64,000 bases of DNA from Phycisphaerae bacterium (GTDB lineage Bacteria; Planctomycetota; Phycisphaerae; UBA1845; UTPLA1). The notes under the pieces are model-generated. The model did no database searches and was not told the origin of the DNA. It saw nothing but the letters and a program-made list of their open reading frames with translations. Each line of letters begins with the position of its first letter. Within the stretch, counting starts at the first letter, position 1. The position numbers and the translations under genes are program-made. This document shows positions 6,970 through 37,023 of this stretch, piece by piece. The stretch covers positions 186,001 through 250,000 of the forward strand of contig JAKLKO010000002.1 in assembly GCA_023150615.1 (NCBI GenBank), read 5' to 3'.

Positions 6970-8766
6970 ATGCCCATTCACGACCTTCTATCGAAAATCG
7001 ACCTGAACGAAGACGAAATCGCCCGCGAAGCCGCCGCCGCGTTCGGTGGATCGCTCGCCACCGACGCCGTCAGCGAAACGCTCACGAAGTCCGTCGGGAG
7101 CGGCTTCCGGAACAACTCCATCGTCACCGGCAAGGTCGTCGGCATGAGCGGCAACGAGGTCATCGTTGACGTCGGCCTCAAGAGCGAGGGTTACATCCCC
7201 ATCGCCGAATGGGACGATCCATCCTCGATCGATCCCGGCGACGAAGTCAACGTCCTTATCGAATCCCTCGAGTCCGATACCGGCACCGTCATCCTCTCCA
7301 AACGCAAGGCCGACCGCATCCAGGGCTGGGAGCGCGTCATGGCCGACTGCGAGGAAGGCAAGAAGGTCAGCGGCAAGGTTCTCCGCAAGATCAAGGGCGG
7401 CTTGCTGGTTGACATCGGCGTCCCCGTCTTCCTGCCGGCCAGCCAGGTCGACGTCCGCCGCCCCGGCGACATCAGCGAGTACATCGGCCGCACGATCGAG
7501 GCCGTCGTGATCAAGATTGATCCTGAGCGACGAAACATCGTCATCTCGCGCCGCAAACTCATGGAAGAATCGCGCGCCGAGGCCAAGGCGAAGCTGATGG
7601 CCGAGATCGAGGTCGGCCAGATTCGCGAGGGCGTCGTCAAGAACATCGCCGATTTCGGCGCATTCGTGGACCTCGGCGGTATCGACGGTCTGCTGCACAT
7701 CACCGACATGAGCTGGGAGCGCATCAATCACCCCAGCGACCTGCTCAAGATCGACGAGCGCGTCAAGGTCAAGATCCTCCACATCGACAAGGAAAAAGAG
7801 AAGATCGCGCTCGGTCTCAAGCAGACGCAGCCGAATCCGTGGGACCAGGTCGAGACGAAGTTCCCCGTCGGCGCCCGCGTCACCGGCGAAGTCGTCAACA
7901 TCACCAACTACGGCGCGTTCGTGAAGCTCGAGCCGGGCATCGAGGGCCTGATCCACGTCAGCGAGATGAGCTGGACGCGACGCATCAATCATCCCTCCGA
8001 GCTGCTCAGCGTCGGCAATCCGGTGCAGTGCGTCGTCCTCGAGATCAACCGCGAGAAGCAGGAAATCTCGCTGGGCCTCAAGCAGACCGAGACGAATCCG
8101 TGGACCCGCGTCGCCGAGCGCTATCCGCCCAACACCATCGTCACCGGAAAGGTCCGCAACCTCACCAACTACGGCGCGTTCATCGAGATCGAGGAGGGGA
8201 TTGACGGCCTGCTGCACATCTCCGACATGAGCTGGACCAAGAAGATCGGACATCCGTCCGAGCTGCTCAAGAAGGGCGACGAGATCAAGTGCGTCGTTCT
8301 GAGCGTCGATCAGGAGAAGCAGCGCATCGCCCTCGGCCTCAAGCAGCTCACCGAGGACCCGTGGCTCCACGCCGTGCCGGAACGCTACATCCCCGGCATG
8401 ATCGTCCAGGGCAAGGTCACGAAGATCACCAACTTCGGCGTCTTCGTCGAGCTCGAGCAGGACCTGGAAGGCCTTCTGCATGTCTCGGAACTGGCCGACC
8501 ACAAGGTCGAGGACCCGCACCAGGAAGTCCAGATCGGCCAGGACCTGGAGGTCAAGATCCTCCGCGTCGACACGCAGGAGCGGAAGATCGGCCTCTCCAA
8601 GAAGCGCGCCGACTGGGCCGCAGCCGCGTCCGACGGCGAGGTGCGACCGGGCAAGTCGATGGCCAAGCCGCTCCGCGGCGGGTTGCACGGCGCCGGCGAG
8701 CAATCGACCGACAAGATCAGTCAGGACATCATCTTCCGCGAGCCGGGGGCCGATCAGAGCCCATAG
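6970..8766 (+). CDS. rpsA: 30S ribosomal protein S1
   Basis: A 598-residue protein with six S1 RNA-binding (OB-fold) domains, at roughly residues 45-115, 127-197, 213-283, 298-370, 385-457 and 472-543. Domains 3-6 carry the typical core (for example NIADFGAFVDLGGIDGLLHI and NITNYGAFVKLEPGIEGLIH). S1 sits on the small ribosomal subunit and unwinds and docks mRNAs, especially those with weak Shine-Dalgarno sites. Length and domain number match full bacterial S1. The ATG at 6970 has no strong ribosome site (only GATGAG about 30 nt upstream), as known for E. coli rpsA, whose translation S1 itself represses. The tail after residue 545 is low complexity. Confidence 0.96.
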   Translation: MPIHDLLSKIDLNEDEIAREAAAAFGGSLATDAVSETLTKSVGSGFRNNSIVTGKVVGMSGNEVIVDVGLKSEGYIPIAEWDDPSSIDPGDEVNVLIESLESDTGTVILSKRKADRIQGWERVMADCEEGKKVSGKVLRKIKGGLLVDIGVPVFLPASQVDVRRPGDISEYIGRTIEAVVIKIDPERRNIVISRRKLMEESRAEAKAKLMAEIEVGQIREGVVKNIADFGAFVDLGGIDGLLHITDMSWERINHPSDLLKIDERVKVKILHIDKEKEKIALGLKQTQPNPWDQVETKFPVGARVTGEVVNITNYGAFVKLEPGIEGLIHVSEMSWTRRINHPSELLSVGNPVQCVVLEINREKQEISLGLKQTETNPWTRVAERYPPNTIVTGKVRNLTNYGAFIEIEEGIDGLLHISDMSWTKKIGHPSELLKKGDEIKCVVLSVDQEKQRIALGLKQLTEDPWLHAVPERYIPGMIVQGKVTKITNFGVFVELEQDLEGLLHVSELADHKVEDPHQEVQIGQDLEVKILRVDTQERKIGLSKKRADWAAAASDGEVRPGKSMAKPLRGGLHGAGEQSTDKISQDIIFREPGADQSP

Positions 8767-8801: not shown

Positions 8802-9044
8802 TCAGGCACGGAGTATTCGCGCCTCGATGAGTCCGACGATCTCGCGGTATTGAGGGAAACGCCCCTGCTCGTGTTTGCTGAAGACGCGCTCGCCGTCCAC
8901 GACGACGTCAAAGACGCCCCCGCCGCCGGGCGTCAATTCGAACTCCGCCCGGCCCAGGCCCAGCGCCGCCTGCAATTCGGCCACCAGACCGGCGGCCTGA
9001 GGCAGGTAATTTCACTGCTTGCAGTACGTGATCTGCACTTTCAT
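8802..9044 (-). CDS. SelW-like (Rdx family) selenoprotein with in-frame UGA (Sec at residue 11)
   Basis: Read through the TGA at 9012-9014, the frame gives 80 residues starting MKVQITYCKQ-U-NYLPQ. The CxxU motif replaces the CxxC of thioredoxin-like Rdx proteins (SelW/SelT/SelH family). The rest is the normal family body: GGGGVFDVVVDG, then VFSKHEQGRFP. Without Sec insertion only a 60-residue C-terminal fragment would be called. A hairpin begins 14 nt after the UGA (8979-8997). The start is ATG 9042-9044; an in-frame ATG at 9048-9050 would add two residues. The family takes part in thiol redox reactions; its exact substrate is not established. The gene converges on rpsA and has its own promoter candidate (9095-9123). 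A paralogue with the same design lies at 18737-18961. Confidence 0.88.
8979..8997 (-). promoter_or_regulatory. Bacterial SECIS-like hairpin in the selenoprotein mRNA
   Basis: On the mRNA strand, GGCCGCC - GGTCT - GGTGGCC forms a 7-bp stem (one G-U pair) with a five-base loop, starting 14 nt after the UGA. The GGUCU loop is the one recognised by SelB in E. coli fdhF mRNA. Position and loop fit a bSECIS element that recodes UGA as selenocysteine. Confidence 0.8.
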
Positions 9045-9094
9045 CGACATCGTCCGCACTGCCGGCGTTAGAACTCCCCGGCCGATTCGCTCGT

Positions 9095-9123
9095 ATCCTA
9101 GGCAACCCGTGTTTCCGCGGCAA
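9095..9123 (-). promoter_or_regulatory. Candidate promoter of the first SelW-like gene
   Basis: Minus strand TTGCCG (9118-9123) and TAGGAT (9095-9100), spacer 17. The start would fall near 9088, giving a leader of about 40 nt. Confidence 0.4.
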
Positions 9124-9234
9124 CGGAGTTGAGACTTGGGCGATCCCTCCCGACCGCCGATAATCCCTCCGGGCACGTCGTTCGAACGGTCGGCCGCGAA
9201 CGTGTCCCGGGTTCCTGACAAGGAGGGTCTCGCC

Positions 9235-10560
9235 GTGAGAATTACGGTCGTCGGAACGGGATACGTCGGACTCGTCACCGGCGTCTGTCTGGCCGATTCG
9301 GGCAACCACGTCGTCTGCGTCGATGTCGACGACGCCAAGATCGCGCGACTTCAGCGCGGCGAGAGCACCATCTTCGAGCCCGGGCTGCAGGACCTCCTCT
9401 CCTACAACATCCGCGTCGGCCGCCTGTGCTTCACAACGGATCTCGAATCCGCCGTTCGAGATGCGCAGGTCGTCTTCGTCGCCGTTGGCACGCCGCCCCG
9501 CGCCGATGGCGACGCCGACCTGACGCACGTCGACCAGACCGCGCTGGCCGTCGCACGCGCGGCGCGGCACGAGCTGATCCTCGTCATCAAATCGACCGTC
9601 CCCGTCGGCACGGCCGAGCGGCTCGCCCCGCTCGTCCGACAGCAGGCCGCCCATCCGGTCCACGTCGTGAGCAACCCGGAGTTCCTCAAGGAAGGCTCCG
9701 CGGTCGCAGACTTCCAGCGCCCCGGCCGCGTCGTGATTGGCGCGTTCGACGACCGCGCCGCAGCCGTGATAAAGGAACTCTACGAGCCGTTCGTCCGCAA
9801 CAACAATCCGATTCTGATCGTCCCGCCCCCTGCGGCCGAGATGATCAAGTACGTCGCCAATTCCTATCTCGCGATGCGCATCACCTTCGCCAACCAGATT
9901 GCCGAACTCTGCGGCGCCTGTGGCGTCGACTTCGACGACGTCCGCCGCGGCATCGGGGCCGATAATCGCATCGGAATCGACTTCCTCTATCCCGGCATCG
10001 GCTACGGCGGGAGCTGCTTCCCCAAGGACGTCCCCGCGCTGTGTCACGTCGGCCGGAGAAAAAACGTTCAACTGACGATCCTCGAGGCTGTTCACAAGGC
10101 CAACGAGCGGCAGCCCACCCTGCTGCTCGACGCGGCGCGCTCGCGATTCGGCGACTCGCTGCACGGCCGGACCTTTGCCGTCTGGGGCGTTGCCTTCAAG
10201 CCGCGCACCGACGACGTCCGCGAAGCACCCGCGCGGCGCATCATCGACGAGCTGCGCACGCGCGGTGCAGCCATCCGCGTTCACGACCCGAAGGCGCTCG
10301 CCAATCTCCGCGAGGCCTACGGCGACCAGCTTGTGTATTGCGAGGAGCCCTACGAAGCGCTCGCCGGCGCCGATGCGCTCTTCGTCTGCACGGAGTGGAC
10401 GGACTATCGCTCGCCGGACTTCGATCGCATCCGCGCGGCGCTCCGCCAGCCTGTCATCTTTGACGGCCGGAACGTGTATTCCATGGCGCAGATGCGCCGC
10501 CACGGCTTCGAGTACTACTCCATCGGCCGCCCGCCCCTGCGCGGAAGCACTCCGGCCTGA
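9235..10560 (+). CDS. UDP-glucose 6-dehydrogenase family
   Basis: A 441-residue member of the UDP-glucose/GDP-mannose dehydrogenase family, which oxidises a nucleotide sugar twice with NAD+ to the uronic acid (UDP-glucose to UDP-glucuronate in the commonest case) for polysaccharide synthesis. The N-terminal Rossmann motif is VVGTGYVGLVTG. The catalytic cysteine is Cys261 in GYGGSCFPKD. The C-terminal substrate domain contains GVAFKPRTDDVREAPA. The GTG at 9235 is chosen because AAGGAGG (9220-9226) lies 8 nt upstream; the longer frame from 9136 adds a tail with no homology. It stands alone, so the glycan it serves is unknown. UDP-glucose is the most likely substrate by motif, but related sugars cannot be excluded. 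Confidence 0.93.
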   Translation: MRITVVGTGYVGLVTGVCLADSGNHVVCVDVDDAKIARLQRGESTIFEPGLQDLLSYNIRVGRLCFTTDLESAVRDAQVVFVAVGTPPRADGDADLTHVDQTALAVARAARHELILVIKSTVPVGTAERLAPLVRQQAAHPVHVVSNPEFLKEGSAVADFQRPGRVVIGAFDDRAAAVIKELYEPFVRNNNPILIVPPPAAEMIKYVANSYLAMRITFANQIAELCGACGVDFDDVRRGIGADNRIGIDFLYPGIGYGGSCFPKDVPALCHVGRRKNVQLTILEAVHKANERQPTLLLDAARSRFGDSLHGRTFAVWGVAFKPRTDDVREAPARRIIDELRTRGAAIRVHDPKALANLREAYGDQLVYCEEPYEALAGADALFVCTEWTDYRSPDFDRIRAALRQPVIFDGRNVYSMAQMRRHGFEYYSIGRPPLRGSTPA

Positions 10561-18736: not shown

Positions 18737-18961
18737 ATGAAGGTCACGATCACGTATTGCGTGCAGTGAAATTACTTGCCCAAGGCCGCCAGTTTGGCGG
18801 CCATGATCAAGGATGAGATCGGCGTGGAGCCGGAACTGATCCGCGGGTCGGGCGGCGTGTTCGACGTTGCGGCCGATGGTCGGCTGATCTACAGCAAGCA
18901 ACAGACGGGCCGGTTCCCGGAGCCGTACGAGGTCATCAACCAGTTGAAGCCGAAGCGCTAA
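18737..18961 (+). CDS. SelW-like (Rdx family) selenoprotein with in-frame UGA (Sec at residue 11)
   Basis: Reading through the TGA at 18767-18769 gives 74 residues starting MKVTITYCVQ-U-NYLPK, with the body GSGGVFDVAADG and IYSKQQTGRFPEP typical of the SelW/SelT/SelH (Rdx) family. AGGAG (18724-18728) lies 8 nt before the ATG at 18737, so translation starts upstream of the UGA. A perfect 8-bp hairpin starts 14 nt after the UGA (18784-18802). Codon context CAG-TGA-AAT-TAC is identical to the paralogue at 8802-9044. Gene callers that stop at UGA would report only the C-terminal 61 residues. tyrS starts 48 nt downstream and may be co-transcribed. Cellular role of the family is redox, details unknown. 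Confidence 0.9.
18784..18802 (+). promoter_or_regulatory. Bacterial SECIS-like hairpin in the second selenoprotein mRNA
   Basis: GGCCGCCA - GTT - TGGCGGCC is a perfect 8-bp stem with a three-base loop (it could open to CAGTTTG). It begins 14 nt after the UGA, the same distance as in the paralogue, and its apex is about 23 nt downstream, within the usual bSECIS range. The loop sequence differs from GGUCU, so recognition by SelB must be more relaxed here. Confidence 0.75.
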
Positions 18962-35523: not shown

Positions 35524-37023
35524 ATGCCGACCTTCTTTGGTCGACGATACATGCGGGATCGAGTACCGGCGACGGAGCGCGCGATCGGCGCGGTCTGCCT
35601 GGTGATCGCGATCGGCATCGTCGGCGGGTTCATCGCTCAGACACGCGAAAAGAAGCCCCCCTTCTTTGCCGTTGACCCGGCGAAGCACCCGCCGGTCGTG
35701 CCGCCCGAGTTGCGTCATGCCCAGAGCCTCCTCCCCGATCGGCCTGCGCCCGGCTGGGTCCGTCAGGAGCCGATTCGTATCCTGGATCCGACGGGCGTCG
35801 AGCGGTCGATGCCCGGGCAGTCCGCGTCGATCTCAGAGGCCGGGGTCGTGCGGACCTTCGAGGCGTTGTATTTGAATCGCGCTGATTCGCGACAGCAGCT
35901 AACGGCACGGATCTTCGAACTCCCCGGTGCGGAGGCCGCGGCGGCGTTGTTCGACGTGACGCGGCCCCAAAGTGCCGTCGGCGAGCCGGCCGGAGTCCGC
36001 GGGTGGCGCGATGGGAACGAGCGCGTCGGGTTCTACGCCGGGCGCTACCTCACGCTGATTGACGGGCGTAACCTGCCGCCGGATGCACTACTGACGCCGA
36101 CGCTGCTCGCGCGCGAGCTGGCGGATCGTCAGGTTCCGTTCGAGTCCACCGCCGCGGTTCGGCCGGCCGGAAAAGACGGGCCGCAGTCTTCTCCCCCGGC
36201 GGAGTCGAAGCTACCGACGGTCGCACCGACGATCTGGTCCGCGCCGGCGGGGATCGCGGAGTACAACCCGGGCAACCTGTGGGAGAAGATCAACGGACGC
36301 GCGGAGCAGTACCTCGCGTTCGATTTCGAGCGACTGGTGTTCGGAAGCTACGCGCTCGTCCGCGATCTGTCCGCGACGGTGGATTGCTACGTGTATCAGA
36401 TGCGCGATGCGGTGAAGGCGTTCGGCATCTACCAGGCCGAACGGCCGGAGCACGTAACGCGCGCTGCGATCGGCAACGACGGCTATCGCGGCGAACGAAG
36501 CCTCTTCTTTCGGAAGGGGCGATCCTACGTGCAACTGGTGGTCGGTGAGTCGGCCGAAGTTGACGGCGAACAGCTTACGAAACTGGCGGAAGGGATTGCG
36601 GCGTGGCTGCCGGACTCCGAGGTCGGCATCTGGGCCGAGTCGGTGCTGCCGAAGGATGGCCGGGTCGAGGGTTCATTCGTGTTCCTGGCGAAGGACGCGT
36701 TCAGTCTTGATTTCCTGGGCCAGGTGTTTGCGGCGGAGTACGAGTCAGGCGATGTCCGCATGACGCTGTTCGTGCACGAAGCGAAGGATGAACCGGCGGC
36801 GCGCGGGCTGGTCGAGCAGTACGCACGGCACGCGCGGCGGTTGGGAAAGGTGCTTGAGCGGACCGACGACTCCGCTGGGAGCGTTCTGTCGGCGGAATTC
36901 AGCGGCGAGTTCGATATAATCTTCAGCACGGGCCGGTACTTCGGCGGAGCGACGATGGCAAGCGATCTTGAAGCGGGTCGCCGCCGTGCGATGTCGATCC
37001 GCGACGAACTGAAGAAGCGATGA
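35524..37023 (+). CDS. DUF6599-like membrane-anchored protein
   Basis: A 499-residue protein with one N-terminal membrane helix (about 19-38, AIGAVCLVIAIGIVGGFIA) and a periplasmic body. It contains two similar halves: residues about 80-200 and about 240-495. The second carries NLWEKINGRAEQYLAFDFER, which resembles the DUF6599 signature (YINGGAE-type). No catalytic residues are evident. It starts a three-gene plus-strand set with a Tat-exported DUF362 protein (40 nt gap) and a membrane polyferredoxin, so it may be an accessory subunit of a redox complex. That role is inferred from position only. Confidence 0.72.
   Translation: MPTFFGRRYMRDRVPATERAIGAVCLVIAIGIVGGFIAQTREKKPPFFAVDPAKHPPVVPPELRHAQSLLPDRPAPGWVRQEPIRILDPTGVERSMPGQSASISEAGVVRTFEALYLNRADSRQQLTARIFELPGAEAAAALFDVTRPQSAVGEPAGVRGWRDGNERVGFYAGRYLTLIDGRNLPPDALLTPTLLARELADRQVPFESTAAVRPAGKDGPQSSPPAESKLPTVAPTIWSAPAGIAEYNPGNLWEKINGRAEQYLAFDFERLVFGSYALVRDLSATVDCYVYQMRDAVKAFGIYQAERPEHVTRAAIGNDGYRGERSLFFRKGRSYVQLVVGESAEVDGEQLTKLAEGIAAWLPDSEVGIWAESVLPKDGRVEGSFVFLAKDAFSLDFLGQVFAAEYESGDVRMTLFVHEAKDEPAARGLVEQYARHARRLGKVLERTDDSAGSVLSAEFSGEFDIIFSTGRYFGGATMASDLEAGRRRAMSIRDELKKR

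Follow-up and report, generated by a model that had tools for sequence, protein, structure and literature searches.

Two SelW-like genes with in-frame UGA codons and coding-region SECIS hairpins in a Phycisphaerae genome

Results and Discussion

In the window, i.e. the whole 64,000-nucleotide stretch of DNA from a Phycisphaerae bacterium analysed here, we found two genes (A and B) that almost certainly encode SelW-like (Rdx) redox proteins with SelB-dependent insertion of selenocysteine (Sec) at a UGA codon by means of a downstream hairpin. The frame, the conserved UGA, the hairpin, the decoding genes and the model fold come directly from the analysis. Actual insertion of Sec at the UGA is what they point to, and a redox role of both proteins would be expected from their family. 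The features of gene A are:

8802..9044, minus strand: selW-like selenoprotein gene A, 80 aa, CxxU (Pfam Rdx PF10262, E 5.5e-20; NCBIfam NF041051, 89.1 bits)
9012..9014, minus strand: UGA of gene A, read as selenocysteine, residue 11 (frame and UGA kept in homologues)
8979..8997, minus strand: bacterial SECIS hairpin of gene A, GGCCGCC-GGUCU-GGUGGCC, 7 bp, 5-nt loop, 21 nt from the UGA

Reading frame and predicted protein of gene A

The first-pass annotation described a frame that reads MKVQITYCKQ-UGA-NYLPQ and runs on into an Rdx body. This frame is confirmed. It runs from 9044 to 8802 on the minus strand, a strand that the annotation had not stated. It starts with an ATG (9044-9042), comprises 80 codons of a Rdx/SelW-like protein and ends at a second in-frame UGA (8804-8802), which is a true stop. 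An in-frame ATG at 9050 could be an alternative start. There was no clear Shine-Dalgarno sequence, and a search for promoters and terminators yielded nothing usable for selW. With the first UGA read as Sec, the translation is MKVQITYCKQUNYLPQAAGLVAELQAALGLGRAEFELTPGGGGVFDVVVDGERVFSKHEQGRFPQYREIVGLIEARILRA, in which CKQU forms a CxxU motif at residues 8-11. The protein matched Pfam Rdx PF10262 over its full length (residues 2-74) with 71.8 bits (cut-off 22.6), and the full frame scored barely above the cut-off of 88 for NF041051 (SelTWH_Campy) and also above that of TIGR02174. An AlphaFold model based on 22 sequences (pLDDT 92.6) showed a strand at residues 3-8 followed by a helix at 14-28, with the CxxU placed after the first strand. 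Its best PDB matches were bacterial SelW-related structures (Z 13-14), and mouse SelW (2npb) was matched with Z 9.7. The modelled protein thus has a predicted thioredoxin-like SelW fold.

As had been foreseen, a gene finder that stops at UGA loses the true N-terminus: a standard caller would yield a 60-aa fragment started by GTG (8802-8984) or nothing at all. We considered whether this fragment, translated from the GTG at 8984, might be the real product, with the UGA a true stop and the upstream part untranslated. This is what a gene caller would output, and the fragment after the UGA still exceeds the Rdx cut-off. However, it falls below the NF041051 cut-off and lacks both the CxxU active site and the first strand, the homologues read conserve the residues on both sides of the UGA, the loop codon of the hairpin is held at the RNA level, and the Sec machinery is present in the genome (see below). 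We therefore regard a true stop as very unlikely.

A second SelW-like gene in the window

Gene B, which was absent from the first-pass annotation, is located 10 kb from gene A:

18737..18961, plus strand: selW-like selenoprotein gene B, 74 aa, CVQU, TAA stop (Pfam Rdx, E 2.1e-19)
18767..18769, plus strand: in-frame UGA of gene B, taken as a Sec codon
18784..18802, plus strand: SECIS hairpin of gene B, GGCCGCC-AGUUU-GGCGGCC, 14 nt after the UGA, with the same spacing as in gene A

The predicted protein begins with MKVTITYCVQUNYLPKAASL. An AGGAG is found upstream of the gene, and a tyrosyl-tRNA synthetase-like gene comes after it. In the tree, A and B fell into separate, well-supported groups (100/99), and they are therefore old paralogues rather than products of a recent duplication. 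When the window was scanned for other frames reading through UGA, with a bacterial SECIS (bSECIS) and a nearby Cys, the sole hit apart from genes A and B was a weak candidate at 36761 (-7.9 kcal/mol).

Conservation of the UGA and co-occurrence with selA

Of 150 related genomes, 92 contained matches, at 98 places in all, and 97 of these places had the UGA inside. Phylum-wide it was present in about 115 of 121 places, and all 108 motif-extracted sequences carried TGA at the aligned codon. The part preceding the UGA is conserved as well as the residues just after it, and the UGA is in-frame in close homologues, contrary to what a true stop with an unconserved N-terminal part would give. A misread TGC or TGT, or a pseudogene or decayed copy, might also be proposed since the UGA is one base away from a Cys codon. 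This is already refuted by the homologues, as relatives that were assembled independently carry the same UGA, and so does a second gene of this genome, and its probability is practically negligible. A comparison with Cys homologues had been suggested; Sec, not Cys, turned out to be the usual form in these relatives. The named relatives, which point to a planctomycete origin of the window, belonged mostly to Planctomycetota, and also to Myxococcota, Acidobacteriota and Actinomycetota, together with two Cys-type Chloroflexi. One divergent planctomycete relative (L150) reads MQITINRCFFUPGIKKQ, with a CxxU and without the usual loop codon.

Among the 150 genomes, 83 encoded both a UGA-containing SelW gene and selA, nine SelW only, 21 selA only and 37 neither, with four weak, short selA matches scored as absent (Fisher P = 3.1e-12, an indicative value because the genomes are related). 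Eight of the nine genomes with the UGA gene and no clear selA were less than 90% complete. The ninth, G075, was 98% complete, and its lack of a selA match possibly reflects an assembly gap or a selenoprotein gene without the means to decode it.

Selenocysteine decoding machinery

The search of the same genome for selA, selB, selC and selD proposed in the first-pass annotation recovered all four in an assembly of 99.6% completeness. The tRNA-Sec carries a UCA anticodon and scored 69.6 bits (cut-off 47), while selA and selB, with 528 and 317 bits, lie next to each other about 48 kb past the window end, on the same contig as the window. The selB gene encodes two SECIS-binding SelB winged-helix domains (SelB-wing_2/3). 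The selD gene (L017 1501-2424) is itself a selenoprotein gene, with its in-frame UGA inside the N-terminal catalytic motif CAGUAGK.

The residue inserted at a UGA cannot be told from an open frame alone, and the codon might be reassigned, or read by a suppressor as Trp or Cys. This is extremely unlikely, as gene A itself ends with UGA, the genome has tRNA-Sec, selA, selB and selD, and the codon is followed by a SECIS. The UGA of gene A is very probably read as selenocysteine. SelB, loaded with GTP and Sec-tRNA-Sec, would bind the hairpin just past codon 11 by way of its winged helices and the GU of the loop, and would insert selenocysteine as the ribosome reaches the UGA. The Cys8-x-x-Sec11 pair, at the turn between first strand and helix, would then cycle between a selenenylsulfide and the reduced form in thiol-disulfide exchange.

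SECIS hairpin and constraint at the RNA level

The stem-loop reported 14 nt after the UGA of gene A is present at 8997-8979, beginning at exactly that distance and with its loop 21 nt past the UGA. The folding energy was between -13 and -14.5 kcal/mol (-14.5 for a 43-nt stretch). A published bSECIS model (PMC13188914) describes a loop of 3-9 nt, a stem of 4-16 bp, a G in the first two loop positions, a spacing of 16-37 nt and an MFE <= -7.5, and the hairpin of gene A lies within every numerical rule of this model (5 nt, 7 bp, GG, 21 nt and energy). Rfam gave no match at this hairpin. Rule-conforming hairpins followed 5.6% of the 1583 UGA triplets in the window, and 0.8% had at least equal stability, so that the hairpin alone is weak evidence. 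Taken together with the UGA in 97 of 98 homologous places and a loop codon kept in all 102 homologues, chance is excluded.

This constraint was assessed in 102 homologues, after six actinobacterial sequences whose loop register differs had been set aside. The loop codon (codon 19) was GGU in 38 and AGU in 64 homologues with no other codon found, even though GGU accounts for 14% of Gly codons and AGU for 4% of Ser codons elsewhere in the same genes. Resampling from codon usage predicted GGU or AGU in 7.5 of 102 sequences, with a maximum of 18 in 2000 trials. The codon after the loop codon was CUG or UUG in all homologues. Codons 17 and 21 face each other in the stem with their wobble positions, which paired in 102 of 102 cases (C-G 87, G-U 6, G-C 5, U-A 3, U-G 1). 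These two positions covary across the SECIS stem and, together with the loop codon, are the strongest evidence at the RNA level. In total 599 of 714 stem pairs were kept, compared with 573 +- 3.6 after within-column synonymous shuffling (none of 2000 shuffles reached as high), in a test that ignores sequence relatedness. The five inner stem pairs were conserved in 84-100% of homologues, and the two outer ones were paired in about half.

Of 35 UGA homologues in an independent sample of the phylum, 31 had a GGU or AGU loop codon and the remaining four had GUG one codon earlier, which suggests a shifted register; none of four Cys homologues had the GGU/AGU loop codon. These counts leave out L132 and L147-L149, which the motif finder misread or failed on, and the divergent L150. 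The actinobacterial SelW-like genes (L065, L067-L071) encode CVPU and show another hairpin register, in which the loop GU seems to come from a GUG placed one codon earlier.

Residue 19 as a possible target of the SECIS loop

Residue 19 is Gly or Ser in Sec forms. It is Trp in five Cys-type structures and in two planctomycete Cys homologues (L145, L146), and Glu and Ala in two Chloroflexi Cys forms. On the tree, with few columns and many unresolved forks, residue 19 switched between Gly and Ser about 12 times, always via GGU/AGU. We see about an even chance that the SECIS loop dictates this residue in Sec-type SelW, confining it to Gly (GGU) or Ser (AGU) because SelB would need GU at the second and third positions of codon 19. 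This reading is not proven, because the two Chloroflexi Cys forms carry Glu and Ala there. If true, it would provide a natural example in which the demands of decoding on the RNA take precedence over the protein's preference at residue 19. The pattern is a modest point, and the sole fresh one of this analysis. It also provides a clean data set on how a coding-region SECIS limits its host protein, and bears on the way in which hairpins lacking a bulged U are recognised by SelB outside Proteobacteria.

Genomic neighbourhood

Gene A is flanked by the following genes:

6970..8766, plus strand: rpsA with six S1 domains, convergent neighbour of gene A, not conserved beside selW
9235..10560, plus strand: ugd (UDP-glucose dehydrogenase family), divergent neighbour of gene A, conserved in part of the family

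The gap between rpsA and gene A measures 35 bp. The location by rpsA had been pointed out as new, but rpsA adjoins selW in none of the relatives examined, and the conserved neighbour is the divergent ugd. The selW-ugd pair also occurred in G001, G004, G008, G010 and G015 (six genomes including this one), and ugd was not found near selW in the stretches examined of eight other genomes of the group. The conserved pair, with its intergenic region 9045-9234, suggests a shared regulatory region or just an old linkage.

Comparison with known systems

The family had rightly been called known: SelW-like proteins are classic in bacteria, where they are an established selenoprotein family (PMC1088965) for which Sec has been argued to be the original form (PMC1794560) and which is the most abundant selenoprotein family in Global Ocean Sampling data (PMC2398784). 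As Sec genes have also been reported in Planctomycetes (PMC4807772), genes A and B represent a new instance of a known family. Ordinary gene callers would cut both genes short or overlook them, and their annotation is corrected here. The analysis also reveals a SelW-like Sec family that occurs in many Planctomycetota, almost always in the UGA form.

With the described bacterial SelW-like selenoproteins (PMC1088965, PMC1794560, PMC2398784) the genes share the small Rdx protein, the CxxU, the in-frame UGA with a bSECIS and the scarcity of Cys homologues in Sec-using organisms. They differ in being a new instance, with two anciently separate copies in one genome. SelW genes of Epsilonproteobacteria are likewise known to be missed by annotation (PMC4607533), and their model SelTWH_Campy (NF041051) gave a full-length match above the curated cut-off, although in another phylum and narrowly (89.1 versus 88). 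The Cys-type Rdx proteins (PDB 3dex, 2oka, 2fa8, 2ojl, 2obk) have the same fold as the gene A model (Z 13-14), but contain CxxC and a Trp where Sec forms have Gly or Ser.

The SECIS loop of gene A had been described as fdhF-type, a likeness that extends to the loop and not to the bulged U17. The element shares the GGUCU apical loop with the E. coli fdhF element, and the loop G and U are conserved, with the GU invariant in 102 of 102 homologues matching G23/U24 needed by E. coli SelB. It differs in the start of the loop 21 nt after the UGA and in the bulged U17 of the 5' arm required by E. coli SelB (PMC8659212), which has no equivalent in gene A because its 5' arm, GGCCGCC, contains no U.
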